IMG/VR virus record: IMGVR_UViG_3300017963_000021
Coordinates: 1-64,000 of that record
Length of the DNA stretch: 64,000 nucleotides
From: a virus
Direction: 5' to 3' (one strand)
Positions 11,041 through 62,570 of this stretch are shown piece after piece; position 1 is the first letter of the stretch; each line of letters opens with the position of its first letter. The position numbers were made by a program, and so were the translations under genes. Below the pieces are notes generated by a model that did not search any database, was not told the origin of the DNA, and saw only the letters and a list, made by a program, of their open reading frames with translations.

Positions 11041-11802
11041 ATGGCAACTACGACAAACCTCGAAGCGGAAAAGTGGACAGCGAACCAGTCGCAGCCGGAA
11101 GTCACGGTGAACGAAACGTTCGACGTATTCGACGCTGCCATCACCGGGACATTGACGCACAATATGTCGTCCGATGCGAACTACTCGCTGATCATCACAG
11201 GGGACAAGCCGCAGGAATGGATGTACGACAAGATCCGCATCACGGATTCGGCTGCGCATCTGACAACGCAGCGCAGCATCTTCGTCCCGACTAACGAAAA
11301 GCACTACGTCGCGCAGAACAACGCGGCACAGCCACTGCTGTTCGAGACATCCGCCGGCAACGGTGTCATCGTTGAACCGGGGCGAACGGTTCGACTGCGA
11401 TGTGACGGCACCGACGTGGTGAGCGACGAAAGCTACCTGCACGCCGGCAGCGAGTTCCGGGGCTACACGGAAACAGTCGTACAGGCTTCGACTACCGGCG
11501 CTGTCAGTTTGTCGTGTGCAAGCGCGAACGTATTCGACCTGACGCTGGTCGGTAACACAACGCTGTCGTTCACGGACGTCCCGTCGACATCCGGCACGAT
11601 GTTCACCGCGACAATTTTTGTCACGCAGGACGGCGGCGGCGCGAACAGCTTCGCGGTATCTGCACCGACTAGCGTGATCTACGCCAGCGGTGAAGCAAGT
11701 ACGACATCACAGGCCGGCGGCGATCGCGACATCTGGATCTTTGCGACAAAAGACGGCGGCAGTACATGGTACGGCATGGCTGGCGGGTTACAATTCCGAT
11801 GA
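11041..11802 (+). CDS. Tail-associated beta-rich protein
   Basis: 253 residues, directly after the tip protein. The N-terminus (EAEKWTANQSQPEVTVNETFDVFDAAITG) resembles minor tail proteins found behind tip genes in other phages. The remainder is beta-rich, with a C-terminal repeat-like part from about residue 130 (TTGAVSLSCASANVFDLTL, then GNTTLSFTDVPSTSGTMF) like the trimer-forming knob of fibre proteins. The stop overlaps the next start (ATGA). The role as fibre base or decoration is inferred from position only. Confidence 0.7.
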   Translation: MATTTNLEAEKWTANQSQPEVTVNETFDVFDAAITGTLTHNMSSDANYSLIITGDKPQEWMYDKIRITDSAAHLTTQRSIFVPTNEKHYVAQNNAAQPLLFETSAGNGVIVEPGRTVRLRCDGTDVVSDESYLHAGSEFRGYTETVVQASTTGAVSLSCASANVFDLTLVGNTTLSFTDVPSTSGTMFTATIFVTQDGGGANSFAVSAPTSVIYASGEASTTSQAGGDRDIWIFATKDGGSTWYGMAGGLQFR

Positions 11803-13334
11803 AAAGACAGCTTAATAGTTTTTTTCAGTCGCACGTGTTCAGTTTTATCGGCACGGGCGGCGGCATGGGCGCGGCGTACTTCCACGGCTCCCCCGGAAGT
11901 GCTGGCGCATCTTCTCCCGTCAGTAGTTACGCAAGCTATGTCCTGTTTTTAGAGCCAGCACTTTATTGGCCGATGAATGAACCGTCAGCGGCAACATCAG
12001 CGGTTGAGGTAGTGCTTGGATATAACGCCTCAGTTTTAGCGCAGGCGTCGGCTGGTTATTCTGTATTGGTATCAACAACAGGCGACACAAGCTGGAACTT
12101 TGATGGTATAAATGATGCCTTGAAAATTGAAGAGGGCAGGATTGGAAGAAATTTGAACGGCGCTGATGCAGTCACGCTGCTCATGTGGCTTGAGCTTGAC
12201 TTACTCAATACAAATGATTCGCCCTTTGTGACTTATATTGGACATGACTCAGTAAGTCGTTTTGGGTTGTCGTTCGACTGTCAATCAACAAACGTTCTCC
12301 GCTTTGGTGCGCGTAGTAGAACTGCTGACGGCCTGCAAACAATTCAGCACACAACATCGACCGGCGAGCGCAATGCGCCGCTTATGGTTGTGGGCATTGC
12401 CAACTATGCAACAGATAGAATGGCGATGTTTTTCAACGCTGAAAAGGTTGTTGCTTCAACTGCTGTGACGTTCGGAAGCTCCGTGTATTCATACGCTTCA
12501 GCCGGTCTTGTTACTGATGACTATATCGGCGCACAGCCTAACTCGTCGCGCTGGATGAATGGCCGCGCTGGTCATGTGGCGCTATTTACTCGCGCATTGA
12601 CAAGCACGGAAGTCAGGAACTTGTATTACTACGGGGTTGACGGATTCCATTATGCCTACACAAGCGCAGTGATCGCTGACTCGCCTGAATGGTATTGGCG
12701 GCTTGATGAAGGAAGTCCGGCAAGTGCCGCAGCCGACTATACCGGCAAGGCTGATGGCCAATACATAAACACCCCCACTAAGGTGTCTGCGCTTGTTAGC
12801 GCACCATTCAGGATTGTTGGCGATGCTGCATACAGATTCAGCAATGCAAGTTCGACTTATGTATCAACAACTGCTTCCGGGATACTTGGCAGCAATGCCC
12901 GTGCTATGGAGTGCATCTTTAGCTGCACCACAAGCACAGCGAGCGATGGCCCGTTAATGATGTGGGGAACAGCCGCAGCGCGAGCGCGGAATCTTCTTTA
13001 TGTCCGGTCAAACGGGAAAATACAATTTGATATTGGCAGTGGATATTTCAAAAGATGGGCGGGCGTTGTGAATGATGGCGGCAAGTATCACATTGTCTGC
13101 CAAGTTAGTTCAGGCGCAAACATAAGCACAGCGCGTCTATTCATCGATGGCGTATCTGCAACAGTATCTACCAATGGCACAAGCGGAACACTAAATACCG
13201 GCACAACCTACGATGTGCATATAGGGAGTGATGCTGCCGCGTCATGGTATCTCAATGGAACAATTGACGAGGTTGCCATATATGCCACCACGCTAACAGA
13301 GGCGCGCATAAGTAAGCACGCAGGTAAATCTTGA
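11799..13334 (+). CDS. Receptor-binding-type tail protein with two LamG/ConA-like domains
   Basis: 511 residues from the ATG at 11799, which overlaps the upstream stop as ATGA. An in-frame ATG at 11766 lies inside the upstream gene and is less likely. After a short N-terminus and a glycine-rich linker, two related beta-sandwich units follow. Each begins near LEPALYWPMNEPS or DSPEWYWRLDEGS and ends near NGRAGHVALFTRAL or NGTIDEVAIYATTL, the pattern of concanavalin/laminin-G-like domains that bind glycans. Codons shift to NNT/NNA relative to neighbours, consistent with exchange of a host-range module. Confidence 0.78.
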   Translation: MKRQLNSFFQSHVFSFIGTGGGMGAAYFHGSPGSAGASSPVSSYASYVLFLEPALYWPMNEPSAATSAVEVVLGYNASVLAQASAGYSVLVSTTGDTSWNFDGINDALKIEEGRIGRNLNGADAVTLLMWLELDLLNTNDSPFVTYIGHDSVSRFGLSFDCQSTNVLRFGARSRTADGLQTIQHTTSTGERNAPLMVVGIANYATDRMAMFFNAEKVVASTAVTFGSSVYSYASAGLVTDDYIGAQPNSSRWMNGRAGHVALFTRALTSTEVRNLYYYGVDGFHYAYTSAVIADSPEWYWRLDEGSPASAAADYTGKADGQYINTPTKVSALVSAPFRIVGDAAYRFSNASSTYVSTTASGILGSNARAMECIFSCTTSTASDGPLMMWGTAAARARNLLYVRSNGKIQFDIGSGYFKRWAGVVNDGGKYHIVCQVSSGANISTARLFIDGVSATVSTNGTSGTLNTGTTYDVHIGSDAAASWYLNGTIDEVAIYATTLTEARISKHAGKS

Positions 13335-14725: not shown

Positions 14726-15053
14726 CGACGTCGACATTCGCTGCTTCAGTTACGCGCGCGTGCGCGGTGCAGCGATCGACTTTGTTCGGGAAAGATCCGA
14801 ACGCGACATATTATTCACAAGCGACGAAATGGTTCCGCCGACGCCGGACTTTACCAAGACGGAAGACTTGCGGATTGACTTCGAGAATATAACAAGGGAA
14901 CTACCCGAATGGCAGCGCGCGCTGTTGCGCCTGTTGTTCTTCGAGGGGTACACGCTGAAAGAGATCGGGAACTTCTGCGGCAAGTCGGAAGGCCGGATCT
15001 GTCAGATCAAGCTGGAAGTGCTGGAAACCATACGACGACGATATGAGGCATAA
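14562..15053 (+). CDS. FliA-like (sigma-28/70 family) RNA polymerase sigma factor
   Basis: 163 residues from the ATG at 14562; an in-frame ATG at 14475 gives an N-terminus that looks unrelated. Residues about 31-80 fit sigma region 2 (DAIQESRMAFL, then CFSYARVRGAAIDFVRERS), closely echoing FliA's YASIRIRGAMID. Residues about 114-153 fit region 4, with the HTH in YTLKEIGNFCGKSEGRICQI. Region 3 is short. It lies at the end of the late operon and could direct host RNA polymerase to late promoters. The target promoters are unknown. Confidence 0.82.
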   Translation: MLREFDSWIQAVAMRAIKIFPANVIDAKKDDAIQESRMAFLKCYRKYLQRNLDADDVDIRCFSYARVRGAAIDFVRERSERDILFTSDEMVPPTPDFTKTEDLRIDFENITRELPEWQRALLRLLFFEGYTLKEIGNFCGKSEGRICQIKLEVLETIRRRYEA

Positions 15054-15057
15054 CGAC

Positions 15058-15666
15058 ATGAAGACGGTACATCTTATTCACGGCTTCAACGAACGGCACA
15101 AGGTCGGCGAACCGAAGATCGCTGTCCTTCGCGACGCGATAGAAAAGGCGGGGCACATCTGTCGCGTGCATGACTACGGTCACTGGGATCTTGTCGCAAC
15201 GCGCAACAATTCAAACCTTGCGCGGCTGATCCTTCCGTCGGTCGGCATGGGCGACACGCTGGTCGGCTTCTCGAACGGCGCGGCGTTGATCGCGCATCTG
15301 TGCCGGCTGGGCGCGCCGGTGCGGCGCATTGTCCTGATACAGCCGGCGCTGGCGAAGAAGTGGAAGCCGCCGGCCAGTGTCGAACGCTGGGCGGTGTTCC
15401 ATAACGCCGGGGATCTGGCGACGGTTGCCGGCAAGCACTGGCGGCGGGTCACGGGTGTCTTGCCGTGGCGCTGGCAGCAGAAGCACCACTGGGGCGAAAT
15501 GGGGAACACCGGATTCGCCGGGACAGACGACCGGGTCGTGCAGTATGCGACCGACGTCGACAGCATCAAGGTAGCAGCAGGGGAGCTACCCAAAGTCAGC
15601 GGGCACAGTGCATGGGCGCACAAGAAAAATGCCGCATGGTGGGATTTCATCATTTCACACGTCTGA
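15058..15666 (+). CDS. Alpha/beta-hydrolase fold protein
   Basis: 202 residues; the ATG at 15058 has a GAGG motif about ten bases upstream, better than the overlapping ATG at 15043. The N-terminus KTVHLIHGFNE carries the oxyanion HG motif. GFSNGA is the G-x-S-x-G nucleophile elbow. An aspartate and the GHSAWAH histidine region near the C-terminus may complete the triad. Such folds include esterases and the LysB cell-envelope esterases of other phages. The substrate is unknown, but the position beside the lysis genes suggests an envelope or lysis role. Confidence 0.75.
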   Translation: MKTVHLIHGFNERHKVGEPKIAVLRDAIEKAGHICRVHDYGHWDLVATRNNSNLARLILPSVGMGDTLVGFSNGAALIAHLCRLGAPVRRIVLIQPALAKKWKPPASVERWAVFHNAGDLATVAGKHWRRVTGVLPWRWQQKHHWGEMGNTGFAGTDDRVVQYATDVDSIKVAAGELPKVSGHSAWAHKKNAAWWDFIISHV

Positions 15667-16102
15667 ACAGGTGCCTGTCGCCGCCTGTGAGGGGCTACGG
15701 GCGGCGATCGGGTGCTGGCTGGTATGGTTGCGTGCCCTGACGGGGTTTTGATCGGTAGCGTCCGCCACAGGGCGCGAGAGTGGAACCATATACGCGCACG
15801 ACCCTGCGCAGGTTTGACATTCATGCGGGCGTCCCGCGCGTCCCGCGTCCCATGGAGAAAATTTTTCCTAAATGTCAAAGGCCGAAAATTTTTTCGGTGC
15901 TACCTGTGATTCCGTGCTACCTTTCGTTACGAATCAAGATACTTACAAGCGATCGCAGGTGCTACCTTTTGGCAGTTTGCTGCTACCCGCTGCTACCTTT
16001 TGGGGTCTGGTATATAAATGGGGGTCGGGCCAAAGTTTTTTCTTGACCTTGAAAAAAATTTCCCCTATATATGCGCGCGCGTGCGCGGGCGCGAATTGCG
16101 AC
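15667..16102. repeat. Gene-free element A with TGCTACC repeats
   Basis: No convincing gene lies here, between the end of the plus-strand late genes and the terminator of the minus-strand operon. Five direct TGCTACC copies occur at 15898-15904, 15915-15921, 15960-15966, 15981-15987 and 15991-15997, three of them preceded by G. They are followed by a TATATAAA run, a G-run, A/T tracts and an alternating GCGCGC block at about 16073-16095. The same arrangement recurs at 53372-53555 (element B). Function is unknown; iteron-type origin, packaging or transcription control are candidates. Confidence 0.7.
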
Positions 16103-16133
16103 AAAAAGAAAGGCCGACATCGCTGCCGGCCTT
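16103..16133 (-). terminator. Rho-independent terminator of the leftward operon
   Basis: Read on the minus strand: stem AAGGCCG (complement of 16127-16133), a 10-base loop, stem CGGCCTT (16110-16116), then TCTTTTTG. It lies 49 bases beyond the last minus-strand gene. Confidence 0.85.
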
Positions 16134-16181
16134 CCGGGTGCGGGGCACCACCCCCGCGACAGGACACGACTCCTGTGCTGT

Positions 16182-16559: not shown

Positions 16560-16593
16560 TGTCGTGTCATCTATGGGCGACCTGATCCGAAGA

Positions 16594-16923
16594 TCAGGCC
16601 GCGTTCCTTGCCGCGCGGCGGTTGCGGAAGAGTTCAAGCCGGCCTTTCTGATCACCGGCAGCGGGGCCGCAGGTATGCTGCGCAGCTTCCCACTTGTTGA
16701 AGTCGACCGCAGCCTGTACCACTTCCCGACCGATCACTTCGCGGGCGAGTGCAGCGCCGGCGTAGCGGCTGTTCTGTTCTTCCCGGTCATCGTCCAGCAC
16801 GTGTTCCATAACGAAGCCGTGCGCGTGGGTCAGCTTGTTCAGCAGGTGCTGATTGTAGTCCTTCGGGTTGCCGAAGGGATTTTCGACCCTGAACTTGTCC
16901 TGTTTGAATTCGTTTCGTGCCAT
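16594..16923 (-). CDS. Hypothetical protein, leftward operon
   Basis: 109 residues with the standard leader GAGGACACGACA before the ATG. Charged and probably helical (DYNQHLLNKLTHAHGFVMEHVL, AALAREVIGREVVQAAVDF), with an arginine/alanine-rich C-terminus. No family is recognised. Confidence 0.75.
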   Translation of the reverse strand: MARNEFKQDKFRVENPFGNPKDYNQHLLNKLTHAHGFVMEHVLDDDREEQNSRYAGAALAREVIGREVVQAAVDFNKWEAAQHTCGPAAGDQKGRLELFRNRRAARNAA

Positions 16924-16950
16924 TGTCGTGTCCTCTATGGTTGCGGTGGA

Positions 16951-17112
16951 TTACTGAACCTTGTGCCACATTTCGGCACCCCAACGGCGGAAGATGTTGT
17001 CGCGGGTGATCGCGTAGACTTCTTCGTATGCCATGGCAGCTTCTTCGTAACGACCTGCTGCCTTGTGGGCGTTGCCTTCCTGAATCTTGGCGTTGATCTC
17101 TTTGTTCGTCAT
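16951..17112 (-). CDS. Small helical protein with TPR-like repeat
   Basis: 53 residues starting at MTNKEINAKIQEGN, after leader AGGGACACGACA. The sequence AHKAAGRYEEAAMAYEEVYAI resembles one tetratricopeptide-type helix pair. A longer in-frame ORF runs through the promoter and is rejected. A promoter lies directly upstream (17149-17178). Confidence 0.7.
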   Translation of the reverse strand: MTNKEINAKIQEGNAHKAAGRYEEAAMAYEEVYAITRDNIFRRWGAEMWHKVQ

Positions 17113-17148
17113 TGTCGTGTCCCTTGTGTGTTCGTTCAGTGTAGGTTC

Positions 17149-17178
17149 ATTATGCAGGGGGTCGGGCATAAATGTCAA
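17149..17178 (-). promoter_or_regulatory. Early-type sigma70 promoter (leftward)
   Basis: Minus strand: TTGACA (complement of 17173-17178), spacer beginning TTTATGC, then CATAAT with 18 bp spacing. The transcript starts the TPR-like gene. Confidence 0.8.
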
Positions 17179-17196
17179 CCCCCTGCGGTAAAAAAT

Positions 17197-17370
17197 TTAG
17201 TAGATCTCCCCGGCGCGCGGATCTTCAGCGGAATCCCGGCAGAAATCAAGCGAAATCGCGATGCGGATGCGGACGGATTCAGCGATCGACATGCCGCGCT
17301 TGTGGCAGTTAAGTACAAGCTGGCGGTACTTGGCGGCTTCGATCTGCTCTGCGATCTGGGTGTTCGTCAT
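17197..17370 (-). CDS. Small hypothetical protein, leftward operon
   Basis: 57 residues, starting MTNTQIAEQIEAAKYRQLVL and ending GEIY. The GAGGACACGACA leader precedes the ATG. Its first residues resemble those of the neighbouring 53-residue gene (MTNKEI against MTNTQI), hinting at shared origin of the cassette start. No domain is recognised. The promoter at 17407-17435 drives it. Confidence 0.7.
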   Translation of the reverse strand: MTNTQIAEQIEAAKYRQLVLNCHKRGMSIAESVRIRIAISLDFCRDSAEDPRAGEIY

Positions 17371-17406
17371 TGTCGTGTCCTCTAAATTTCGTTGCAGTGT
17401 GTGTTC

Positions 17407-17435
17407 ACTATAAGGGCTATCGGCATATATGTCAA
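17407..17435 (-). promoter_or_regulatory. Early-type sigma70 promoter (leftward)
   Basis: Minus strand: TTGACA (complement of 17430-17435), 17 bp spacer with ATATATGC, then TATAGT. A/T tract upstream of -35 as in the other copies. Confidence 0.82.
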
Positions 17436-17454
17436 CACCTTTAGCAAAAAAATT

Positions 17455-17667
17455 TTAGTCGGATTTATCCAGCCATGCGAACGTCCCGTTCAGGGAGTAC
17501 ACGCAGCGGTCGCCGTCGTAGACGTTAACTGTCGCGCAGGATTCCCAGCCGGCTTCGTCGTCCGCAAAACGGATCGCCGCGTTCAGTGTCGTGAATGATT
17601 TCATCGCGGACGCGTAGGCGGCGTCTTCGATGAATCCGTCGCGATAGGTTGTCACTACCTTGAACAT
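17455..17667 (-). CDS. Hypothetical protein, leftward operon
   Basis: 70 residues. The ATG overlaps the stop of the upstream gene (TAATG). Compact alpha/beta sequence (MFKVVTTYRDGFIED, then NAAIRFADDEAGWESCATVNVYDG) of a type often seen in small phage proteins. No family named. Its 3' end lies just before the next promoter. Confidence 0.72.
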   Translation of the reverse strand: MFKVVTTYRDGFIEDAAYASAMKSFTTLNAAIRFADDEAGWESCATVNVYDGDRCVYSLNGTFAWLDKSD

Positions 17668-17999: not shown

Positions 18000-18293
18000 T
18001 TAAATCTTTTCAACGCCGTCGCAGACTTCGTCGCCGAAACCCTTCGGTGTTCCGTTGACCGGTACGACGACTTCAGTCCTGTAGCCTTTGTCGGTCTGGT
18101 CTACGTTGCCGAAGACGTCCTTCGTGACCTTGATACGGTACGACTGATAGCCGTGTATGTGTTCGAAGATCTCGACGACTTCGCCTTCGACGTAGGCGGC
18201 GCGTTCGTGTTCGCCGATCAACCAGCGACCCCAATCACCGTCTGCGAAGTCGAAGCTGCGAACCTTGTCGCCTGTCTTGATTGTGTCGGTCAT
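18000..18293 (-). CDS. Hypothetical protein, first gene of the leftward operon
   Basis: 97 residues with the standard leader GAGGACACGACA. Small beta-barrel-like sequence (IKTGDKVRSFDFADGD, then AAYVEGEVVEIFEHIHGYQSY), similar in feel to SH3-like phage proteins. It is driven by the promoter at 18343-18371. Confidence 0.74.
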   Translation of the reverse strand: MTDTIKTGDKVRSFDFADGDWGRWLIGEHERAAYVEGEVVEIFEHIHGYQSYRIKVTKDVFGNVDQTDKGYRTEVVVPVNGTPKGFGDEVCDGVEKI

Positions 18294-18342
18294 TGTCGTG
18301 TCCTCTAAGTTCTAAAGTTTTGTCGTAACGTCCTACGGTTTC

Positions 18343-18371
18343 TATAATACGGGTTACGGCATAAAAGTCAA
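18343..18371 (-). promoter_or_regulatory. Early-type sigma70 promoter (first of leftward operon)
   Basis: Minus strand: TTGACT (complement of 18366-18371), 17 bp spacer starting TTTATGC, then ATTATA (or TATTAT at 16 bp). An A/T-rich tract lies upstream. Confidence 0.8.
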
Positions 18372-18444
18372 CACCTTTAGCAAATAAAATTTCCGACCTT
18401 TGCAATCAAGTATTTAGCGCGGTTCCCTTTTCGTTCGTGTGGTG

Positions 18445-18489: not shown

Positions 18490-20070
18490 TTGACACAGTC
18501 AGATTATCAGTACAAGACCGAGCCGTACGCACACCAGCACGAAGCGTTCCTGCTGTCCCGTGACGAAGAAGCATTCGCGCTTCTAATGGAAATGGGCACG
18601 GGCAAGTCGAAGGTAATTGTCGACACGTCCGCGTGGCTGTATGGCTGCGGAAATATCGACGCGCTGGTTGTCGTCGCGCCGAACGGCGTGCACACGAACT
18701 GGACGCTGAAAGAAGTCCCGGTACACATGCCCGACCACATCCCGGTCGTGTCGGGTTACTGGGTCGCCAGTCCGCGCAAGCACGAACGCGCCGCACTCGA
18801 AAACCTGTTCAAGCAGGAATCCGGTCCGCTGCGTGTTGTCGCGATGAACATCGAAGCGTTGTCGACGAAGAAGGGCACCGCGTTTCTGCGCCGGCTGCTG
18901 AACACATTCCGAACACTGCTGACGGTCGACGAATCGTCACGCATCAAGACACCGGGCGTTGCGCGCACGCGCAATCTGGTGAACCTTGGCAAGTTTGCTT
19001 CGTACCGTAGGATCCTGACAGGGACGTCAATAACACAGGGACCGCTTGATCTGTACGCGCAGTACGCGTTCCTGAACAGGCATATCATCGGGCATAGTAC
19101 ATTCACAAGTTTCAAGTCACACTTCGCGCTGTACGAACGGCGCAAGGTAAACAACAAGCGCGGGTTCTACGACGCACTGGTCAGCTACAGGAACCTGTCG
19201 GAACTGACGGACCTGATCCGTCCGGTGACATACCGCAAACTGAAAAAGGACTGTCTGGATCTTCCGCAGAAGATCTACGAAGTTTACCCGGTCGAACTTT
19301 CCAAGGAACAGCGGCGCATCTACGACGACGCGTTGAAAAAGACGGTCGTGGAATTACGTCGCAGCGAAGGCATGTCCGACGACGCGACACTTTTCGACGC
19401 GGAAAACTTCGAAGATGAAATCCTGAAGTATCTGCAAAGCGACGGCACGAAAACACAGATCAAGAATGCGCTGACGCGACTGCTACGACTGCAGCAGATC
19501 GTCGGCGGTTTCTTCACTGACGAAGAAGGCAAGGTACACGCCATCGATGAAAAGAACGCGCGTGTCGACGCGTTAATGAACGTCATCGATGAAACGCAGG
19601 CGAAGTGGATTATCTGGGCGCGCTTCCGTCCTGAAATAGCCGCAATCGCTGAAGCACTTCGCGAGAAGTACGGGCGCGGATCCGTTGTCGAATACCACGG
19701 GGGAGTAGAAGACGATGATAGAACTGAAGCAGTGGCACGGTTTCAGGGTGAACGTCACCACGTCAATGCAAAGACCGGGGAACACAGGATCGAACCCGTC
19801 GATCTTTCTGATCAGGCCCGGTTCTTTGTTGGTCAGCCACGGTCCGGGGGAATCGGAATTACACTTACAGCGGCGGAATACGTCGCGTACTTCAGTAACG
19901 ACTTTAGTCTGGAAACCCGACTACAGAGTGAGGACCGCGCGCACCGCATAGGACAAAAGAAGAACGTCACTTACGTCGACCTGCAAGCAGCGGGCACAAT
20001 TGACGATAGAATTACATCGATTTTACTAGACAAACAGAGACTTTCTGATACCGTACTGGACGCATTGTAA
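18490..20070 (+). CDS. SNF2-like superfamily II helicase
   Basis: 526 residues from a TTG start with AAGGA upstream (18475-18479); no in-frame ATG fits. Walker A is MEMGTGKS (33-40), motif II is VDESS (D147-E148) and TGTSITQGPLDLYAQ is motif III. The C-terminal helicase domain has the SNF2 motif VI QSEDRAHRIGQ at 479-489. SNF2-type enzymes translocate on double-stranded DNA. In phages they are found in replication modules, as here, next to primase and polymerase genes. It may remodel replication or recombination intermediates. Confidence 0.9.
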   Translation: MTQSDYQYKTEPYAHQHEAFLLSRDEEAFALLMEMGTGKSKVIVDTSAWLYGCGNIDALVVVAPNGVHTNWTLKEVPVHMPDHIPVVSGYWVASPRKHERAALENLFKQESGPLRVVAMNIEALSTKKGTAFLRRLLNTFRTLLTVDESSRIKTPGVARTRNLVNLGKFASYRRILTGTSITQGPLDLYAQYAFLNRHIIGHSTFTSFKSHFALYERRKVNNKRGFYDALVSYRNLSELTDLIRPVTYRKLKKDCLDLPQKIYEVYPVELSKEQRRIYDDALKKTVVELRRSEGMSDDATLFDAENFEDEILKYLQSDGTKTQIKNALTRLLRLQQIVGGFFTDEEGKVHAIDEKNARVDALMNVIDETQAKWIIWARFRPEIAAIAEALREKYGRGSVVEYHGGVEDDDRTEAVARFQGERHHVNAKTGEHRIEPVDLSDQARFFVGQPRSGGIGITLTAAEYVAYFSNDFSLETRLQSEDRAHRIGQKKNVTYVDLQAAGTIDDRITSILLDKQRLSDTVLDAL

Positions 20071-21941: not shown

Positions 21942-23471
21942 ATGGGCATCGAACAAACTGCGGAAAGATTTATTCGTATTTTTAGGGGGCTGGATCGTGC
22001 GTATGGCACATACAAGCTAACAGGCAAGACAAGTTCGAAGGGGAAGGCCGAAGGGCAGGCGATGACGCGTCAGGATAGCTGGGGCGTCAAGGAAGTTACC
22101 GCGCACCTGAAGGGCGAAACAGGCATCGGCATCGTTCCCATAATGGGCGACGATATGTGCACGTGGGGCAGCATCGACATCGATGAATACCGCGACTTCG
22201 ATCCTGCGCATATTAGCCGTGTACTGCACGAACGAAAAAGTCCGCTTGTCGCATGTCGCAGCAAGTCAGGCGGCGCGCACCTTTTCCTGTTCACGACGGA
22301 ACCTGTGCCGGCGAGCGAAATGCGTCGCGCGCTGGGTATCCTGTGCGATAACCTAGATTTCCAAGGATCGGAAATATTCCCGAAGCAATCAACCATTGAC
22401 GACGGCGACGTCGGGAACTGGTTGAACATGCCGTACTTCGACGCGGAACGTACCGTGCGCTACGGTATGCAGAACGGCAAACCGATCTACGACGTCAATG
22501 AATTCCTAGACTACTGCGAAGCGAAAGCGCTGACACCGGACGCGATCAGCGCGATAAAAGTCGAAGCGGATCCCGACGCGCCATTCCCTGACGGACCGCC
22601 GTGCCTTCAAGCACTCGCAAAGAAAGGCGTCCCGGAAGGCGGGCGCAATGAAACGCTGTTCAACATGGGCGTATATGCACATCTGGTTCGACCGGATGGC
22701 GACTGGCAGGAACTGCTGAACGAGTACAACAACAAGTACATGTCCGAACCGTTGCCGTATAACGAAGTCGCAACGATCGAAAAAACACTAAGCAAGAAAG
22801 ACTATTTTTACCGGTGCGAAGTTTCCCCTATATGTAATTACTGCAACAAGTCGATATGCAAACAGCGACAGTTCGGTATCGGCGGCGGCGAACCTACCGA
22901 TCCCGGTATCATGATCGACGCACTCGACAAGATTATCACCGACCCGCCGTTGTGGATCGTGACGATCAACGGGGTTCGCATTCAACTACAGACCGAAGAA
23001 CTAATGTCGCAAGCGTTACTAGGCAAGCGCTGCATGGAAAAGCTGAACGAATTGCCGCACAAGATCGGGAACAAGGCGTGGACAAATCTAATTCAGGGGC
23101 TTCTGAAAAAAGTAAACATAATCGAAGCGCCTGACGACGCCAGTCCAGCCGGCCAGTTAATGTACCACCTCGAACAGTTTTGCACGACACGCGCACAGGC
23201 ACGCGTTCGCGAAGAAATCCTGATGGGCAAGCCATGGACAGAAGAAGGTCGCACCCTGTTCCGTGGCGTCGACTTCAAGAAGTACCTGCACCAGCAACAG
23301 TTCCGAACGTTGAAGGATAACCAGATCTTCGGCGTACTTCAGGAACGGACATCGATCACGAACAGACAGTTCAAGGCGAAGGGCAAGAACGTTCGCTGCT
23401 GGTCCGTACCTGAATTCGTAACGCAGGACGGCGATCACGACCCTGCAAGGCTACCGGAAACCGCGTTCTGA
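21942..23471 (+). CDS. Archaeo-eukaryotic-type DNA primase (TOTE/AEP family)
   Basis: 509 residues. The N-terminus (AERFIRIFRGLDRAYGTY) resembles the TOTE-type domain that precedes AEP primases. The catalytic aspartates are D79 and D81 in SIDIDEY. The nucleotide-binding histidine is H113 in SKSGGAHLFLF. A further conserved segment is GNWLNMPYF. Cysteines at about 293-308 (CEVSPICNYCNKSIC) suggest a zinc or Fe-S site. It would lay down primers for the family A polymerase. No RBS precedes the ATG because the terminator occupies that space. Confidence 0.85.
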   Translation: MGIEQTAERFIRIFRGLDRAYGTYKLTGKTSSKGKAEGQAMTRQDSWGVKEVTAHLKGETGIGIVPIMGDDMCTWGSIDIDEYRDFDPAHISRVLHERKSPLVACRSKSGGAHLFLFTTEPVPASEMRRALGILCDNLDFQGSEIFPKQSTIDDGDVGNWLNMPYFDAERTVRYGMQNGKPIYDVNEFLDYCEAKALTPDAISAIKVEADPDAPFPDGPPCLQALAKKGVPEGGRNETLFNMGVYAHLVRPDGDWQELLNEYNNKYMSEPLPYNEVATIEKTLSKKDYFYRCEVSPICNYCNKSICKQRQFGIGGGEPTDPGIMIDALDKIITDPPLWIVTINGVRIQLQTEELMSQALLGKRCMEKLNELPHKIGNKAWTNLIQGLLKKVNIIEAPDDASPAGQLMYHLEQFCTTRAQARVREEILMGKPWTEEGRTLFRGVDFKKYLHQQQFRTLKDNQIFGVLQERTSITNRQFKAKGKNVRCWSVPEFVTQDGDHDPARLPETAF

Positions 23472-28645: not shown

Positions 28646-30621
28646 AGGGCGAACAGGGTATGCTGCTGTCGCGTGAAGATCTGGCAGCGAAGGTTCCCGA
28701 CACAGGCTGGACGCCGCCGCAACAATTTCCCCGGCTGGATGCCGCGAAGGAAATCGCGATCGACGTCGAAACCAAGGACAAGCGACTGAAGCAGGACGGA
28801 CCCGGCGACATACGCGGCGACGGCAAGATCGTCGGCATCGCGGTCGGCACCGACGACGGCGGGCGCTGGTACTTCCCCATGCGGCACGAATTCGGGCATC
28901 AAAACATGGACCCGGAAATGGTGCTTCGCTGGGCGCGCGAAGAACTGTCGCGTCCGCATCAACCGAAGATCGGCGCGAACCTGATGTACGACGTATCGAT
29001 GCTGCGCGCTGACGGCGTGAACGTTGCCGGCGATCTGATCGACGTGCAAAGCGCGCAGGCATTGCTAGACGAAAACGCGTTTTCCTACGCGCTGGAAAAG
29101 CTGGCGCGTCAGTGGCTGAACGAAGGAAAGAAAGACAACGATCTGTATCACTGGCTGGCGGATACGTACGGCGGAAAGTTCACGCGTAAAGATCAGGCCG
29201 GGAATATTTATCGCGCACCGGTGCAGCTGGTCGGTCCGTACGCTGAAGGCGACGTCGATCTTCCGCTGCGCATCTGGCATCTGCAGCGACGCGAACTTGA
29301 AAAGCAGGAACTGCTGGAACTGTTTCAGCTGGAAACGGATCTGCTGCCGTTGCTGCTGGAAATGCGCTGGCACGGTGTCGCAGTCGACGTCGATCGCGCG
29401 GATGAAGTACGCGCAACGATGCGCGGGCAACAGGCGGAACTGCAGAAGAAGCTGAACAAGATGGCGGGCGCGCCGGTCGACGTATGGGCAGCAGAAACTA
29501 TCGCGCGTGCATTCGATGCCGAAGGCATACACTACCCGCACACAGCGAAAACGAAGAAGCCGTCGTTCACGAAGGCGTGGCTGGAAAATCACGAAAGCGA
29601 ACTTGCGCAGATGATCGTACAGGTCCGCAGTCTGGACAAGACGATCGGCACGTTCATCGACGGGCACATACTGGGCAGCGTGATCAATGGCCGCATACAC
29701 GCGCAGTTCCATCCGTTACGCGGTGACGAAAACGGCACAGTGTCCGGGCGCTTCAGTTCATCGAACCCGAACCTGCAGAACATACCATCACGCGACAAGA
29801 TTATCGGGCCGCTTATCCGTTCGCTGTTTATTCCAGATCCCGGCGATCCGTACTGGCGTCGCTATGACTACTCGCAGATCGAATATCGCTTGCTTTCACA
29901 CTTCGCTGTCGGTCCCGGTGCAGACGAAGCGCGCGAACGTTATCGCAAGGATCCGAAGACAGATTATCACCAGATGACGCGCGAACTTATCCACGTGATA
30001 ACTGCGATCATGCTGGACCGCAAGCCGACGAAGAACATTAACTTCGGGCTGTGCTACGGGATGGGCGTGCCAGCACTGGCTGCAAATCTTGGCATGACCG
30101 TGAAGGAAGCGACGCCGCTGTTCGAGGCGTACCACGAAGGCGTCCCGTTCGTGAAGAAGACGTACGACCTTGCAATCAGCACGGCAAAGAATCGCGGGTA
30201 CGTGAAGACGGTACTCGGTCGGCGTCGGCGTTTCGATCTGTTCGAATCGGCGAACTTCATGGACAAGGCCGAACGCGACAAAATGAAACCGCTGCCGAAG
30301 GAAGACGCGATCAGGGAATACGGGTCGAACATCCAGCGCGCCGGCACACACGCGGCACTGAACGCGGTCCTGCAGGGATCGTCCGCTGACATGATGAAGA
30401 AAGCCATGCGTGACGCGCACAGGGCCGGCGTATTCGACGCGACAGGGATCCCCCTGATCACGGTCCACGACGAACTGAACTTCAGCGACAGCGGCACACA
30501 GGAAGCTGCAGAAGGTTTTCGGGAACTGGTCGACATCATGGAAAACTGCATACAGCTGAAGATCCCGGTCGTCGTGGACGGCGAGCGCGGGCCGAACTGG
30601 GGGACGATGGAAGATCTCTAA
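28642..30621 (+). CDS. Family A DNA polymerase with 3'-5' exonuclease
   Basis: 659 residues, overlapping the clamp-like gene by four bases. Exonuclease motif I is D41-V-E-T and motif III YAEGDVDL near residue 200. Polymerase motif A is DYSQIEYR (D409). The O-helix is R460-K-P-T-K464-N-I-N-F468-G-L-C-Y472, keeping the Arg, Lys, Phe and Tyr of E. coli Pol I. Motif C is HDE (H609-D610). There is no 5'-3' exonuclease domain. It is the replicative polymerase of the phage; F468 predicts normal discrimination against dideoxynucleotides. Confidence 0.95.
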   Translation: MKGEQGMLLSREDLAAKVPDTGWTPPQQFPRLDAAKEIAIDVETKDKRLKQDGPGDIRGDGKIVGIAVGTDDGGRWYFPMRHEFGHQNMDPEMVLRWAREELSRPHQPKIGANLMYDVSMLRADGVNVAGDLIDVQSAQALLDENAFSYALEKLARQWLNEGKKDNDLYHWLADTYGGKFTRKDQAGNIYRAPVQLVGPYAEGDVDLPLRIWHLQRRELEKQELLELFQLETDLLPLLLEMRWHGVAVDVDRADEVRATMRGQQAELQKKLNKMAGAPVDVWAAETIARAFDAEGIHYPHTAKTKKPSFTKAWLENHESELAQMIVQVRSLDKTIGTFIDGHILGSVINGRIHAQFHPLRGDENGTVSGRFSSSNPNLQNIPSRDKIIGPLIRSLFIPDPGDPYWRRYDYSQIEYRLLSHFAVGPGADEARERYRKDPKTDYHQMTRELIHVITAIMLDRKPTKNINFGLCYGMGVPALAANLGMTVKEATPLFEAYHEGVPFVKKTYDLAISTAKNRGYVKTVLGRRRRFDLFESANFMDKAERDKMKPLPKEDAIREYGSNIQRAGTHAALNAVLQGSSADMMKKAMRDAHRAGVFDATGIPLITVHDELNFSDSGTQEAAEGFRELVDIMENCIQLKIPVVVDGERGPNWGTMEDL

Positions 30622-30640
30622 AATTTTTTTTCTAAAGGGG

Positions 30641-30669
30641 TTGACATTTATGCCGACAAACTGGATACT
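30641..30669 (+). promoter_or_regulatory. Early cassette promoter
   Basis: TTGACA, 17 bp spacer beginning TTTATGC, GATACT. Preceded by an A/T tract and TCTAAAGGGG. Confidence 0.85.
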
Positions 30670-30708
30670 GTAGTCACTGAAGCACAACACACCACTGAGG
30701 ACACGACA

Positions 30709-31077
30709 ATGAACTTCGACAAAGACAAATTCAACTGGGACGGCATGTATCTGACCTACGAAGGCGAGCAGGGCGTGTATACGACCTACTACGGCGAGAA
30801 CGGCGAGCGCTGCCATCCGACCCGCTTCGGTCTTCCGAAGGCTGCATTCATCGCACGCTTCAAGTACAACAGGGCGTGGAAGTCATGGGTCAATTTCATG
30901 GTGAAGAACTTCACCGTCGAAGAGTATCTGGGCGCGCTCGAACGGGATGAATCCCCGCTTAACATCATGATGGGGAAGGGCTATCTTGAACCCCACATGC
31001 GCAAGCAGTGCCGCGACGCTGGCTACCCGGCGACCGTCGAAGGCTGGCACGAAATGGTCGCGAACATCACCTACTAA
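30709..31077 (+). CDS. Hypothetical protein, cassette gene
   Basis: 122 residues with its own promoter and the exact leader GAGGACACGACA. Aromatic-rich N-terminus (FNWDGMYLTYEGEQGVYTTY), then a helical second half (KSWVNFMVKNFTVEEYLGAL). No family is recognised. It is followed by a GC-rich UUCG hairpin and then another promoter, so it forms a self-contained unit. Confidence 0.8.
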   Translation: MNFDKDKFNWDGMYLTYEGEQGVYTTYYGENGERCHPTRFGLPKAAFIARFKYNRAWKSWVNFMVKNFTVEEYLGALERDESPLNIMMGKGYLEPHMRKQCRDAGYPATVEGWHEMVANITY

Positions 31078-31106: not shown

Positions 31107-31162
31107 AACCCGTTGACTTTCGTGAAGATTAAAAAATAATTGAATTTTTTTGTTGCAAGGTG

Positions 31163-31191
31163 TTGACATTTATGCAGACGTTCGATAATCT
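31163..31191 (+). promoter_or_regulatory. Early cassette promoter
   Basis: TTGACA, 17 bp spacer beginning TTTATGC, TAATCT; A/T-rich tract upstream. Confidence 0.87.
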
Positions 31192-31227
31192 ATACCTACA
31201 CTGAACGAACGCACTGAGGACACGACG

Positions 31228-31434
31228 ATGAAAGAACTTACCATACACGGAACACGCGGTAGCCAAGACATCACGAAGGTCGTCCGCATCCGCAAGGAAC
31301 GCGCACTGGGTGGATACATCGTCGAGTGGGGCACCGGTAGCAATAAGAAGATCGGAACCTACGCCGGCGGCAAGCTGACCACGATGCCGGGGACGCGCCT
31401 GATCACTGTACTGAACGACTGCTGGAACGACTAA
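31228..31434 (+). CDS. Small hypothetical protein, cassette gene
   Basis: 68 residues with leader GAGGACACGACG. Basic beta-rich sequence (KVVRIRKERALGGYIVEWGTG, then KIGTYAGGKLTTMPG), perhaps an SH3-like or nucleic-acid-binding fold. No family named. Co-transcribed with the next gene 14 bases downstream. Confidence 0.76.
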   Translation: MKELTIHGTRGSQDITKVVRIRKERALGGYIVEWGTGSNKKIGTYAGGKLTTMPGTRLITVLNDCWND

Positions 31435-34874: not shown

Positions 34875-34944
34875 ATCCGGCAGCTGGATCCCCGGAAGGT
34901 TTCGGAGTCGTGTCCTCGCCTTCTGCCAGTCGCCGGATTTTTTT
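34875..34944 (+). terminator. Probable Rho-independent terminator
   Basis: Outer stem ATCCGGC / GCCGGAT (34875-34881 and 34932-34938) with a second arm CTGG / CCAG inside, then TTTTTT. It ends the operon just 12 bases before a new cassette promoter. Confidence 0.7.
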
Positions 34945-34955
34945 CGCTAAAGGGG

Positions 34956-34984
34956 TTGACATTTATGCCGATACCCCATATAGT
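34956..34984 (+). promoter_or_regulatory. Early cassette promoter
   Basis: TTGACA, 17 bp spacer beginning TTTATGC, TATAGT; preceded by GCTAAAGGGG. Confidence 0.87.
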
Positions 34985-35026
34985 GAAGACACACTGAAGC
35001 AAAACTACAGAACTGAGGACACGAAC

Positions 35027-35251
35027 ATGGACCTGATCAACAAATTCGCAGCTGACCACAACCTTGACGCCGACGCCGTCGCCGATCTGGTTGACTTCAT
35101 CACCAGCCGCGTAGACGCCGACACCATCGCGCAGCATCCTGAAGTCGTCGTCGCATCCGCTACCCGCGCATGGATCGCCAGCAAAGAAGCGCTGGCCGCT
35201 GAAGCGCTGGCCGACATCGACGGCTTCGCCGAATCACTGGACCGCATCTAA
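35027..35251 (+). CDS. Small helical protein, cassette gene
   Basis: 74 residues, leader GAGGACACGAAC. Alanine- and aspartate-rich and fully helical (NKFAADHNLDADAVADLVDF, then KEALAAEALADIDGFAESLD), strongly acidic. No family is recognised. The longer in-frame start would cross the promoter and is rejected. Confidence 0.78.
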   Translation: MDLINKFAADHNLDADAVADLVDFITSRVDADTIAQHPEVVVASATRAWIASKEALAAEALADIDGFAESLDRI

Positions 35252-35518: not shown

Positions 35519-35567
35519 TTGACTTTTATGCAGAAATAAAAATAATAAAAAAATCTGCAAAAAGTGG

Positions 35568-35596
35568 TTGACATTTATGCGGGCAAGTCGTAATCT
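35568..35596 (+). promoter_or_regulatory. Early cassette promoter
   Basis: TTGACA, 17 bp spacer beginning TTTATGC, TAATCT; long A-rich tract upstream. Confidence 0.88.
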
Positions 35597-35639
35597 GTAG
35601 TTACTGAAGCAGCAAACACCACGACAAAAGGACACGACA

Positions 35640-35882
35640 ATGAACTTCAACACCTACATCGACACCTTCATCGACGAAAAAGGCTTGAACCGCGACTATA
35701 CCTTCGAGGTCGAAGGCACAAGCGGCACGAACTGGATCCCCCTCGAAGTCGTCGTCGAGCACATGAAGATCGCGCCGAAGCACGAACAGGCACAGATCAA
35801 GACCATGATCGTCAAAATCGATTTCATGAACGGCAACGTGATGCACTTCTTCAACCATCTTGCCAAGGCGATCGCCAAGTAA
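35640..35882 (+). CDS. Small hypothetical protein, cassette gene
   Basis: 80 residues, leader AAGGACACGACA. N-terminus MNFNTYIDTFIDEKGLNRDY, then IPLEVVVEHMKIAPKHEQAQI. Similar in length and opening to other cassette genes that start MNF. No family named. Followed by a UUCG hairpin. Confidence 0.77.
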   Translation: MNFNTYIDTFIDEKGLNRDYTFEVEGTSGTNWIPLEVVVEHMKIAPKHEQAQIKTMIVKIDFMNGNVMHFFNHLAKAIAK

Positions 35883-39930: not shown

Positions 39931-40043
39931 AGGTTCGCCGGGTGGTCTTCTGCGGGGATCCGTTCGGCTATGGGAACCTGTACTGGTGCGGGTGCGTGAA
40001 GACGGTCTTCGGCTACCTGCACCGGTGCAAAAAACACCGGTAA
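39927..40043 (+). CDS. Small cysteine-rich basic peptide
   Basis: 38 residues, ATG overlapping the previous stop (ATGA). Cysteines in VFCGD, WCGC and HRCKK with a basic ending suggest a minimal zinc-binding peptide. Its last codons form the 5' arm of a terminator hairpin. Confidence 0.5.
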   Translation: MKVRRVVFCGDPFGYGNLYWCGCVKTVFGYLHRCKKHR

Positions 40044-40051
40044 ATTTTTTT
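40021..40051 (+). terminator. Rho-independent terminator
   Basis: Perfect stem ACCGGTG / CACCGGT (40021-40027, 40035-40041), loop CAAAAAA, then AAATTTTTTT. It closes the long operon of overlapping small genes. Confidence 0.88.
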
Positions 40052-40060
40052 CTAAAGGTG

Positions 40061-40089
40061 TTGACATTTATGCCGATAAGCGTATTATA
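40061..40089 (+). promoter_or_regulatory. Early cassette promoter
   Basis: TTGACA, spacer beginning TTTATGC, ATTATA at 17 bp (or TATTAT at 16 bp). It lies nine bases after the terminator T-run. Confidence 0.85.
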
Positions 40090-40127
40090 GAAATTAAGCA
40101 AGACACCACGACATAGAGGACACGACC

Positions 40128-40298
40128 ATGATCAACGCCATAATCGCAATCGCCAGCTGCCTTCCGCTTATCATCACTTTTGTGGTCCGCACGGAACTTA
40201 CCCGCGACGCGCTCGTCATCGTCGAGGCCGACGGCAAGGAAGTCTACAGCTGCCATGCCTACGGTCACAGCTTCACCATCGCGAAAAAAATTTTCTAA
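40128..40298 (+). CDS. Small membrane protein, cassette gene
   Basis: 56 residues, leader GAGGACACGACC. N-terminal hydrophobic segment (INAIIAIASCLPLIITFVV), then a short polar domain. Probably a single-span inner-membrane peptide. It is a complete unit of promoter, leader and gene. Confidence 0.7.
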   Translation: MINAIIAIASCLPLIITFVVRTELTRDALVIVEADGKEVYSCHAYGHSFTIAKKIF

Positions 40299-40303
40299 AG
40301 GGG

Positions 40304-40332
40304 TTGACATTTATGCGGGGCGGGGTTAATCT
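40304..40332 (+). promoter_or_regulatory. Early cassette promoter
   Basis: TTGACA, 17 bp spacer beginning TTTATGC, TAATCT. It starts only six bases after the preceding stop codon. Confidence 0.88.
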
Positions 40333-40371
40333 GTAATCACACTGAACGAACACACCACTGAGGACACGACA

Positions 40372-40698
40372 ATGAAACCAATGAACTACGAATTCGTCAT
40401 CGCTTACAACGCCTTCATCGCTGGCGTCAAGGAAATGATCGAAGCCGACTATGAGAAGAACAACTTCCCCGTCGAGCTTCGCGAGGAAATCGACGCCGAA
40501 ATCGGTCGCAAGTACATGAAAGTCATCAAGAAGGGACCGGGCAGCTGCTACGTCTACGCCTTCATCGACAAAGTGACCGGCGACATCTACAAGCCGGCCA
40601 GCTGGAAGGCACCGGCGAAGCACGCACGCGGCAACGTCTTCGCAGCGGATCACGGACTTTCCTGCGCTGGCGTCTACACCATCGCCTACATGCGGTAA
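40372..40698 (+). CDS. Hypothetical protein, cassette gene
   Basis: 108 residues, leader GAGGACACGACA. Helical first half (YEFVIAYNAFIAGVKEMIEA), then SCYVYAFIDKVTGDIYKPA. The second half resembles small phage proteins with an S-C-Y-x-Y-A-F motif. Unknown function. Confidence 0.77.
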   Translation: MKPMNYEFVIAYNAFIAGVKEMIEADYEKNNFPVELREEIDAEIGRKYMKVIKKGPGSCYVYAFIDKVTGDIYKPASWKAPAKHARGNVFAADHGLSCAGVYTIAYMR

Positions 40699-40715
40699 AA
40701 ATGTGTCGCAGGGGG

Positions 40716-40744
40716 TTGACATTTATGCCAGCCCCCTGCATACT
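40716..40744 (+). promoter_or_regulatory. Early cassette promoter
   Basis: TTGACA, 17 bp spacer beginning TTTATGC, CATACT. Confidence 0.85.
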
Positions 40745-40780
40745 GTAACCACACTGAACGAACACACCGAGGACACGACA

Positions 40781-41047
40781 ATGATCAAATGGCACATTGA
40801 AAGCCACGACAGCTGCGGTCCTAGCTGGAAGAAGTGCTACCGGCATCGCAACTACGAAAGCGCCGACAAGCGCTTCTACATCACAAAGCGCTACGAGCGC
40901 GGCAATGGCTACGACAGGGCCGGCTTCCACTGGGTGCTGATCGATCGGTCGACCAAGGACCAGAACGGTCGCTACCGCGTTCTGGAAGGCGCAGGATCCT
41001 GCAAGCAGGCGAAGCAATGGGCCGAAGAAATTCTTCAAGGGGCATAA
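40781..41047 (+). CDS. Hypothetical protein, cassette gene
   Basis: 88 residues from ATG 40781, leader GAGGACACGACA; the longer in-frame ORF crosses the promoter. Basic and aromatic (HIESHDSCGPSWKKCYRHRN, then FHWVLIDRSTKDQNGRYRVL). No family recognised. Confidence 0.76.
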   Translation: MIKWHIESHDSCGPSWKKCYRHRNYESADKRFYITKRYERGNGYDRAGFHWVLIDRSTKDQNGRYRVLEGAGSCKQAKQWAEEILQGA

Positions 41048-52324: not shown

Positions 52325-52356
52325 GAACCATTCTCGAAAAAAGGTCGAAAAAGGTG

Positions 52357-52385
52357 TTGACATTTATGCGGTCAGTGGGTAGTCT
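52357..52385 (+). promoter_or_regulatory. Early cassette promoter
   Basis: TTGACA, 17 bp spacer beginning TTTATGC, TAGTCT; preceded by an AAAAAGG tract. Confidence 0.86.
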
Positions 52386-52410
52386 GTACTTACACACTGA
52401 GGACACGACA

Positions 52411-52785
52411 ATGACCACATACGCCGCTTTCAAAGAAAACACCGCTTATCTTTCCGGGGACTTCGGCGAGAAGTACGCCCGCCGGCTGTTCGGCGACGAC
52501 ATCGTCGACGCGCTTCCCCGCTTCGTGAAGGGCAAGAACAAGGGCAAGATCAAAGGCCGGCTGGACTGGAAGAAATGCGTCCGGGGCGGCTGGGTCGGTC
52601 AGGGCAGCAGCAGCTACGGCGCGGAAGGGTACGTGGAGAACCGCGTAAACAAGACGATCAGTGCGAAGCTGGTGATCCCGGTCTGGGGCGACGAAGACGA
52701 ACTGGTCGCCGAATGGCACATCGACTACGACAGCAAGAAGCCGGCAGGCACCCCGATCGACTGGGGGATGCTGGATCAGTTCTAG
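52411..52785 (+). CDS. Hypothetical protein, last cassette gene
   Basis: 124 residues from ATG 52411, leader GAGGACACGACA. Globular (NTAYLSGDFGEKYARRLFGDD, then KGRLDWKKCVRGGWVGQGSS). No family recognised. It lies right before the gene-free region with element B. Confidence 0.76.
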   Translation: MTTYAAFKENTAYLSGDFGEKYARRLFGDDIVDALPRFVKGKNKGKIKGRLDWKKCVRGGWVGQGSSSYGAEGYVENRVNKTISAKLVIPVWGDEDELVAEWHIDYDSKKPAGTPIDWGMLDQF

Positions 52786-53066: not shown

Positions 53067-53692
53067 TCGTATAGGCTGCTGTGCAGCGCTGTGGGGATTC
53101 CCCTCGACAGGTTTCCGTTGCGCTGTTTTCATTGGTTCTTATCTCCGTAAACTGGCTACAAGGGAAAAAGATGAAGTAATTCAATCGGGTAACACGACGC
53201 ACAGTCGCAAGTTATTGATTTCCCTCACAAGGTAGCAAAGGTAGCACCGTGGTAGCACCATGGTCGCTACCTTTTTTTTGCTTAAAATTCAACAAGTTAA
53301 CCTTTATTTTTTTGTGTGAATCACTTGCTATATGGGGAAAATTTTTTAATTTCGAAAATCACGTTTTTTCTGTGCTACCTGTGATTCCGTGCTACCTTCC
53401 GTTGTAAAACAGGGACTTACAGCGCTGCACAGGTGCTACCTCACTGCTACCTTTGCTGCAGGTTATTGATTCGTATATAAAAGGGGGTGGTGCGCCTATT
53501 TTTTTGAAGGGTCGAAAAAAAACTTTGCCCATATATGCGCGCGCGCGTACGCGCGACGACACTTCTGGATGATGATGTAAATACGAACGATTCGCGTCCG
53601 CATCCCCGCTGGCCGCGTGCCGCCGTCAGAAATTCCCGCACTGTGATCCCGGTACTTGCCGACACTGCGACACCCCGCTATATTGCCCGCAC
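53067..53692. repeat. Gene-free element B: TGCTACC/GGTAGCA cluster before the terminase
   Basis: No convincing gene. GGTAGCA at 53231-53237, 53240-53246 and 53251-53257, inverted GCTACC at 53266-53271, then TGCTACC at 53373-53379, 53390-53396, 53434-53440 and 53445-53451. The part 53372-53555 closely follows element A, with TATATAAAA and G-run, A/T tracts and a GCGCGC block. Directly upstream of the small terminase gene, it may hold the late promoter, an origin or the packaging site. A TATATT-like box lies near 53678-53684. Confidence 0.7.
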
Positions 53693-54031
53693 ATGGACGA
53701 CGGACCGCTGACATCCTCGAAAGCACCGGCGCTGCGGGTCGGTGAACCGATCAAGACGCCGCGTCCGGGCACGCAACGCCGGCAAATGGACCGGGAACGG
53801 GCGGACCTGCTGGAACTGATGCGGGCCGACGACGGCGTCCCGGATGACTATCATCCGCTGGTCGAGCTGGCGAAGCTGGCGAACACACAGAACATTCCCC
53901 TGAACCTGCGCATGAAGGCACACAGCGAGATCGCGCAGTACACGACACCGAAGCTGCGCGCCGAAGATCCGCCGACGAACGACGACGACGATACGGGGCC
54001 GACACTGAACCTGCGCTTGCGCACGGAATAG
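53693..54031 (+). CDS. Small terminase subunit candidate
   Basis: 112 residues, ending at the large terminase start. Helical, charged sequence (RRQMDRERADLLELMRADDG, then YHPLVELAKLANTQNIPLNL) with an acidic tail. The pattern DYHPLVELAKLA and RMKAHSEIAQYTTPKLR occurs in small terminase proteins I remember. It would recognise the packaging site in or near element B. Confidence 0.75.
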   Translation: MDDGPLTSSKAPALRVGEPIKTPRPGTQRRQMDRERADLLELMRADDGVPDDYHPLVELAKLANTQNIPLNLRMKAHSEIAQYTTPKLRAEDPPTNDDDDTGPTLNLRLRTE

Positions 54032-62089: not shown

Positions 62090-62570
62090 TCCGTGGACGA
62101 TAACCGGCAGCAAGGCGGTCGCCAGTGCGACGGTATCGACCCTGTCGATGGCGTCGACAGTGTCGTTCTTGCCGATCGATACTGTGCAGTACCAGATCGT
62201 ATTCCAGATCGCTTCGTACACAGCCGGCGCAGTGCAGCCAGTGTTCGGCAGTACGGTATTCGGTGCAAGCGCGGAATCCGAAGGCTATTACGACTACGAA
62301 GTGACGGCATCGGCTGGGCACACGACCAGCAAGGTGCACGGACTGCAGGCGCATACGTTCAAGGGGAAGATTGATAACTTACAAATTTATCGTCTAGGTG
62401 CGACGTCGTTCACATACAACTACGTGTATCAAGGTTCCGATGTGGACATGTTCGCGGTAATATTCCATACAGACTTCAAAGAAGAAAGACTGCTAAATCT
62501 TGTTCTATCGAATACAAACCAAAGCATACCTATACAGCAGGAAACAGACAGGGTGTACCTGAACCCGTAA
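62082..62570 (+). CDS. Beta-rich structural protein, second of a tandem pair
   Basis: 162 residues, overlapping the first copy by eight bases. Shares PWTITGSKA, SKVHGLQAH, YQGSDVDMFAVIFH and LVLSNTNQSIPIQQETDRVY with it, and lacks the extra N-terminal domain. The last third is AT-richer than the first copy. Follows a tandem duplication with divergence. Confidence 0.72.
   Translation: MPDPWTITGSKAVASATVSTLSMASTVSFLPIDTVQYQIVFQIASYTAGAVQPVFGSTVFGASAESEGYYDYEVTASAGHTTSKVHGLQAHTFKGKIDNLQIYRLGATSFTYNYVYQGSDVDMFAVIFHTDFKEERLLNLVLSNTNQSIPIQQETDRVYLNP

Follow-up and report, generated by a model that had tools for sequence, protein, structure and literature searches.

In lambdoid phages, the iterons of the replication origin differ between related phages and stay matched to each phage's own O initiator, a relationship that is reportedly also the subject of work on Stx phages; lambda itself has one origin, inside the O gene. 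The satellite phage P4 has two separated iteron regions, ori and crr, that are used by one primase-helicase, and the stoperators of Cluster A mycobacteriophages are copies of a short asymmetric word that serves one phage repressor and co-diverges between phages. Paired sites are also found in Bacillus phage SPP1, where one phage protein, gp38 (G38P), binds direct repeats at oriL and at oriR; when bound to oriR, it is proposed to halt the replication fork and thereby set off the change to concatemers (PMC6316719, PMC3485210). Here we describe two non-coding repeat elements, A and B, in a virus genome that resemble the SPP1 pair in being two distant sites of similar organisation in a circular-replicating siphovirus, as SPP1 is, with direct repeats beside an AT-rich stretch that may correspond to the unwinding element of SPP1 (PMC6316719, PMC3485210).

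The window that we analysed comprises bases 1–64,000 of an 88,061-bp IMG/VR record. The record has the same 123 bp at both ends, which makes the genome a circle of 87,938 bp. From the terminase at 54.0 kb, the late genes extend rightward across the numbering origin to an ORF ending at 15666. The first late ORF (53693–54031), probably the small terminase, lies ahead of the large terminase subunit (54032–55474, + strand), which is the first identified late gene and is 47–51% identical to those of the isolates used below. Self-comparison also revealed a tandem duplication of ~470 bp at 61610–62563, with 60% identity, which yields two adjacent paralogous late genes. The replication module starts on the A side with an SF2/SNF2-type helicase at 18.5 kb (18490–20070, + strand), followed by Pam3-like genes, an AEP/PrimPol-type primase (21942–23471, + strand), a UvrD-type helicase and Pol A; the primase is conserved in every isolate that has the paired element. 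The two elements bracket the late module, with B just before the terminase genes and A just past the last late gene. Element A (15852–16100, + strand) lies past the stop of the 15043–15666 ORF and faces a small leftward operon at its 3' end, in agreement with the first-pass annotation, which had placed it at the convergent junction of late and leftward transcripts. Two long mechanical ORFs around A (15180–15878 and 16564–17385) are antisense to better-supported genes and were judged spurious from their position and the lack of a family match. Element B (53332–53560, + strand) lies ~130 bp upstream of the small ORF and the large terminase.

A self-comparison of the dot-plot type proposed in that annotation aligned 15852–16091 with 53332–53555 at 71.1% identity over 246 columns (E = 2.8e-24), bearing out the claim that an element of about 200 bp recurs in the same order ~37 kb away and moving the start of A from 15897 to near 15852, where similarity with B begins. 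All five of the direct TGCTACC iterons reported for A are present, within 15898–15997 on the + strand (starts at 15898, 15915, 15960, 15981, and 15991). The four copies in B have the same orientation as those in A (53373–53451, + strand; starts at 53373, 53390, 53434, and 53445), and three inverted copies that had gone uncounted lie upstream of them (53231–53257, − strand, reading GGTAGCA on the + strand; starts at 53231, 53240, and 53251) and are absent from A. The order common to A and B begins with an A/T tract, an iteron pair 17 bp apart, ACTTACA with a short palindrome, and more iterons, and ends with TATATAAA, a G-run, a T-tract/A-tract, CCC, ATATAT, and GCGCGCGCG. In the right half of A (16011–16091, + strand), a candidate AT-rich unwinding region with alternating CG, the last blocks read CCCC-TATATAT-GCGCGCGCG; in that of B (53474–53553, + strand) they read CCC-ATATAT-GCGCGCGCG.

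Matches to TGCTACC/GGTAGCA number 19 in the window, compared with a mean of 3.8 and a maximum of 11 in 100 shuffles. This is the genome's best cluster word, with five clustered copies in A and seven in B, and no third cluster was found in the whole 88-kb genome. Both elements are non-coding, carry A/T tracts, and are lower in GC (0.466 for A and 0.459 for B) than the genome (0.558), though the AT-rich stretch beside the iterons is less clear in the Acinetobacter phages discussed below. DNA folding was only weakly better than in shuffles (z = −2.0 for A and −1.6 for B), so we do not propose a cruciform at either element, and Rfam detected no structured RNA within the window.

Relatives of the elements could not be recovered by nucleotide similarity: a BLASTN search of phages with A and one of plasmids with B returned no match, nor did exact-pattern scans for the element in IMG/VR and bacterial genomes. 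A query from 11766–13331 gave a single weak match, and a helicase query gave distant relatives only. A scan for GATACCGTGATGCTT gave two IMG/VR fragments (L006 and L008; terminases 71–72% identical) and otherwise only chance matches in coding regions. Both fragments have a similar element upstream of the terminase, laid out as a motif-bearing hairpin with T8, an A/T tract, iterons, an AT box, and alternating CG, with the repeat word GGTATC compared with GGTAGC in the studied phage; the element was not seen in contigs with more distant terminases. Scans with the CCC-ATATAT-CGCGCG block gave mostly chance matches, including low-complexity sequence in one contig (L176), and PF22548 was not found in the matched records. 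Two unrelated phages had a single iteron array beside CCC-ATATAT-RCGCGCGCG, with nine copies of AACTACA in one (L172, ~1970–2330; record G001, 26.07–26.42 kb) and six of AGGGTAA in the other (L171, ~1130–1430; record G002, 6.98–7.3 kb).

The paired architecture, in turn, was found in sequenced isolates chosen through terminase and PrimPol searches as phages with both genes, all of which share the SF2 helicase, PrimPol, UvrD helicase, and Pol A. Isolate self-comparisons revealed a pair of non-coding repeats, one where the late module ends and the other upstream of TerS; the Kokobel2 matches and some of those in PMBT28 and PSA28 were other dispersed repeats, and the iteron clusters of these phages were placed by word searches. 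We then scanned genomes without bias for k-mers clustered at two loci, taking the maximum of 20 first-order Markov shuffles as the threshold. The top word marked both late-module boundaries in all nine tested genomes with the terminase and the PrimPol/helicase/Pol A module, which represent few independent lineages (Acinetobacter phages, an enteric/Kokobel group, and the studied phage), with a marginal score for JeffCo (22.2 against a shuffle maximum of 20.8). That word was GGTAGCA in the studied phage, AACCGAG/CGGTTAC in Bhz20, CGGTTGC in SH-Ab 15497, GGTAACA in Barton and JeffCo, GGTTCCA in Kokobel2, and CGTTCCA in PMBT28, PSA28, and VLCpiS6a. No boundary pair was detected by the same scan in SE4 and SOI901, which have a similar terminase and other replication genes, or in DSL-LC04 and MW202510, which have a similar PrimPol and another late module; the top score of SOI901 (34.9) exceeded its shuffles, but the word lies at 5.5 and 13.5 kb within an early gene block. 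A further phage with a related PrimPol and a different late module, 023Pt_psg01, has one element at 13.5–13.9 kb, with seven copies of TGGCACA, A/T tracts, and CGCGCGCG. The expectation that both copies would be kept in relatives thus held for the architecture and failed for the nucleotide sequence, and an element undetectable by BLASTN can be recognised from its position and internal matching.

The layout of the isolate elements is retained despite the change of word, with three direct iterons spaced ~8 bp from one another, then a hairpin-containing gap, then inverted iterons; in the Acinetobacter phages, a CCCCGTCSGACGGGG hairpin fills the gap in both copies. We compared eight A. baumannii phages with 80–86% identity to Bhz20 in which both copies could be aligned. 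Variation in the flanks tracks the locus (A resembles A, and B resembles B), whereas in the iterons it tracks the genome (A resembles B): 17 iteron cells were genome-like and 9 locus-like, compared with 19 and 169 elsewhere. Fisher's test gives p = 1.8e-9 over cells that are not independent, so the column-level value of 3.8e-4 is the fairer figure. One iteron base fixed per genome holds by counting for the G-type phages only; the others mix two iteron bases, and the pattern of the mixture is shared by A and B. Wholesale gene conversion of A and B does not account for the matching, because the flanks stay locus-specific. Within-genome matching of the iterons would imply a single trans-acting binder for both sites, and its simplest account is selection that keeps both arrays readable by one factor. 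The protein that diverges fastest in these phages is a 65-aa product encoded between PrimPol and the SF2 helicase (22800–22997 in Bhz20, L219, and homologues), which is 46–69% identical among phages whose neighbouring proteins are 89–98% identical; its candidacy as the sole iteron binder is weakened by its absence from JeffCo.

We suggest that A and B are probably iteron-type replication origins or replication-control sites that work like oriL and oriR of SPP1, their most likely role being to start or control phage DNA copying through one phage protein. We favour this reading because the pair occurs only where both modules are present (9/9) and is absent from the four one-module phages, and because its orientation varies, the promoter predicted for the terminase genes lies apart from B, and the early promoters form another cassette. 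The constancy of the iteron layout, the within-genome matching of the iterons, and the replication genes common to all these phages speak for it as well. Among the functions first offered for the repeats, iteron-type origins therefore come out ahead of packaging, partition, and control of late transcription.

Transcriptional control is the strongest of the alternatives, though we regard it as unlikely. The elements could be operator arrays for one phage repressor or activator of the replication operon (A) and late operon (B), or boundary or insulator sites that separate early from late transcription. The isolates suit such a role, as their PrimPol operon comes after A and their terminase operon after B, and a regulator with matched operators at two loci would likewise co-diverge with them. 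Terminators lie close to the repeats as well: B includes a highly stable hairpin that has arms of iteron sequence and a T8 run behind it (53230–53279, + strand; RNA fold −28.1 kcal/mol, z = −6.0, equalled by 0 of 200 shuffles), which is likely the rho-independent terminator of the operon upstream and has a motif-bearing counterpart with T8 upstream of the terminase in L006 and L008. Directly outside A is a terminator-like hairpin of the leftward operon (16108–16135, − strand), which is weak alone, as one was found against a shuffle mean of 1.0. The iterons nevertheless miss the likely terminase promoter, a sigma-70-like TTGCCG-17-TATATT (53656–53684, + strand; also weak alone, with one found against a shuffle mean of 0.8) that stands directly before the first late ORF, outside B, and begins ~200 bp beyond its last iteron. 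At A, no sigma-70 promoter-like site was found, and no rightward gene directly follows it in the studied phage. The early promoters, of the type TTGACA-17-TATAAT with a GAGGACACGACAATG leader, belong to a cassette of the form TTGACATTTATG...TATARTG...GAGGACACGACAATG at ~12 dispersed loci, none of them within A or B and none with iterons. These separate promoters make a regulatory role for A and B less probable.

The cassette consists of an A/T tract, CTAAAGGKGTTGACATTTATG, a TATA-type −10, and GAGGACACGACAATG at the gene start. Its leftward copies lie at 17109–17210, 17367–17458, and 18290–18407 of the window, with further copies at 30601–30760, 31143–31232, 34939–35047, 35561–35652, 40042–40140, 40291–40376, 40712–40784, and 52350–52414. 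A degenerate piece, GGTTTGACATTCATGCGG, is found at ~15.81 kb, just left of A.

Orientation bears on both transcription and packaging. The two copies are direct in the studied phage, Kokobel2, PMBT28, and PSA28 and inverted in the Acinetobacter phages. A promoter or pac site, being directional, would be expected to keep its direction, so this argues against both; no such constraint applies to an origin, a barrier, or a control site. That the repeats are a pac-like site, bound by TerS to start headful packaging, is therefore improbable, even though the terminase genes follow closely on B in the studied phage, L006, and L008 and PMBT28 is thought to be pac-type (PMC6025938). Packaging would call for a single site near terS rather than a second copy tens of kilobases away, and the copy nearest the terminase is inverted in the Acinetobacter phages. 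The B-side cluster of PMBT28 is ~2.1–2.4 kb upstream of TerS, SE4 and SOI901 have a related TerL without the pair, and no TerS column tracks iteron type. We give marginally less credence to homology arms through which modules are exchanged, or to a partition/centromere site for a ParB-like protein: the repeats do bracket a whole functional module in the studied phage, but the inverted pairs of the Acinetobacter phages cannot excise one, the locus-specific flanks indicate that the copies are not homogenised as a block, and no partition gene was found among the subset of genes tested. Chance similarity or a low-complexity artefact can be dismissed, since the A/T runs and alternating CG are simple sequence but the iterons are not, TGCTACC exceeds its count in every shuffle, and the same two boundaries recur in nine genomes.

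Read as origins or replication-control sites, A and B come nearest, among documented arrangements, to SPP1 in having two distant sites of the same organisation, as found by self-comparison and in the nine genomes. They differ in that oriL lies inside gene 38 and the SPP1 origins are ~12–13 kb apart, whereas A and B are non-coding and bracket the late module. SPP1 also uses a DnaB-type helicase (gp40), with gp39 as loader, and host primase, whereas the replication genes identified in the part of the studied genome that was scanned are PrimPol, SF2 and UvrD helicases, and Pol A, none of which is a DnaB-type helicase. Family scans of the same part of the genes found no initiator like gp38 or lambda O. 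We do not file the pair with that of SPP1 because no gp38-type initiator was found and we infer its role in replication, as we do protein binding at A and B. Two non-coding copies and the lack of a known O-like protein separate the studied phage from the lambdoid phages. The two separated iteron regions recall P4, but P4 alpha has an origin-binding domain, whereas the PrimPol here belongs to another AEP family, for which no origin-binding domain is known. Stoperators occur throughout the genome as scattered sites, whereas the A/B word is clustered at exactly two loci. Counting against origins are a GC skew, uninformative here, that does not switch at A or B, both PrimPol-only controls (DSL-LC04 and MW202510), which have no obvious iteron pair, the operon-proximal positions in isolates noted above, and the small number of independent lineages among the nine phages.

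Under the origin reading, arrays of a 7–8 bp word beside openable AT-rich DNA would be bound by one phage-encoded protein at both junctions between the replication/early and late modules. Binding at one copy may license theta replication by the phage PrimPol, helicases, and Pol A. The copies might divide the labour: with the protein bound, the other copy might serve as a second origin, block forks, or control copy number, and in this way help the change to the concatemers used in packaging.

No replication origin for these phages was found in the literature searched, a search that many subscription journals lay outside. Paired phage origins are known; this family of paired elements, its position bracketing the late module, and its fast-evolving matched iterons did not appear in that literature. 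We tentatively propose, as a possibility that falls short of an even chance, that the pair represents a widespread, undescribed two-origin (or origin and fork-barrier) system of PrimPol/Pol A siphoviruses, including phages with diaminopurine (Z) genomes, in which the iterons at the ends of the late module evolve fast with their initiator and the origins of close relatives are mutually incompatible. Z-genome phages such as SH-Ab 15497 have strengthened A-T pairs, which bears on how an origin would open. If the origin reading of A and B is right, it would give two exact coordinates per genome for study in cultured phages, and a natural series of iterons (CGGTT followed by A, C, G, or T) with which to search for the binder and examine the specificity of replication.
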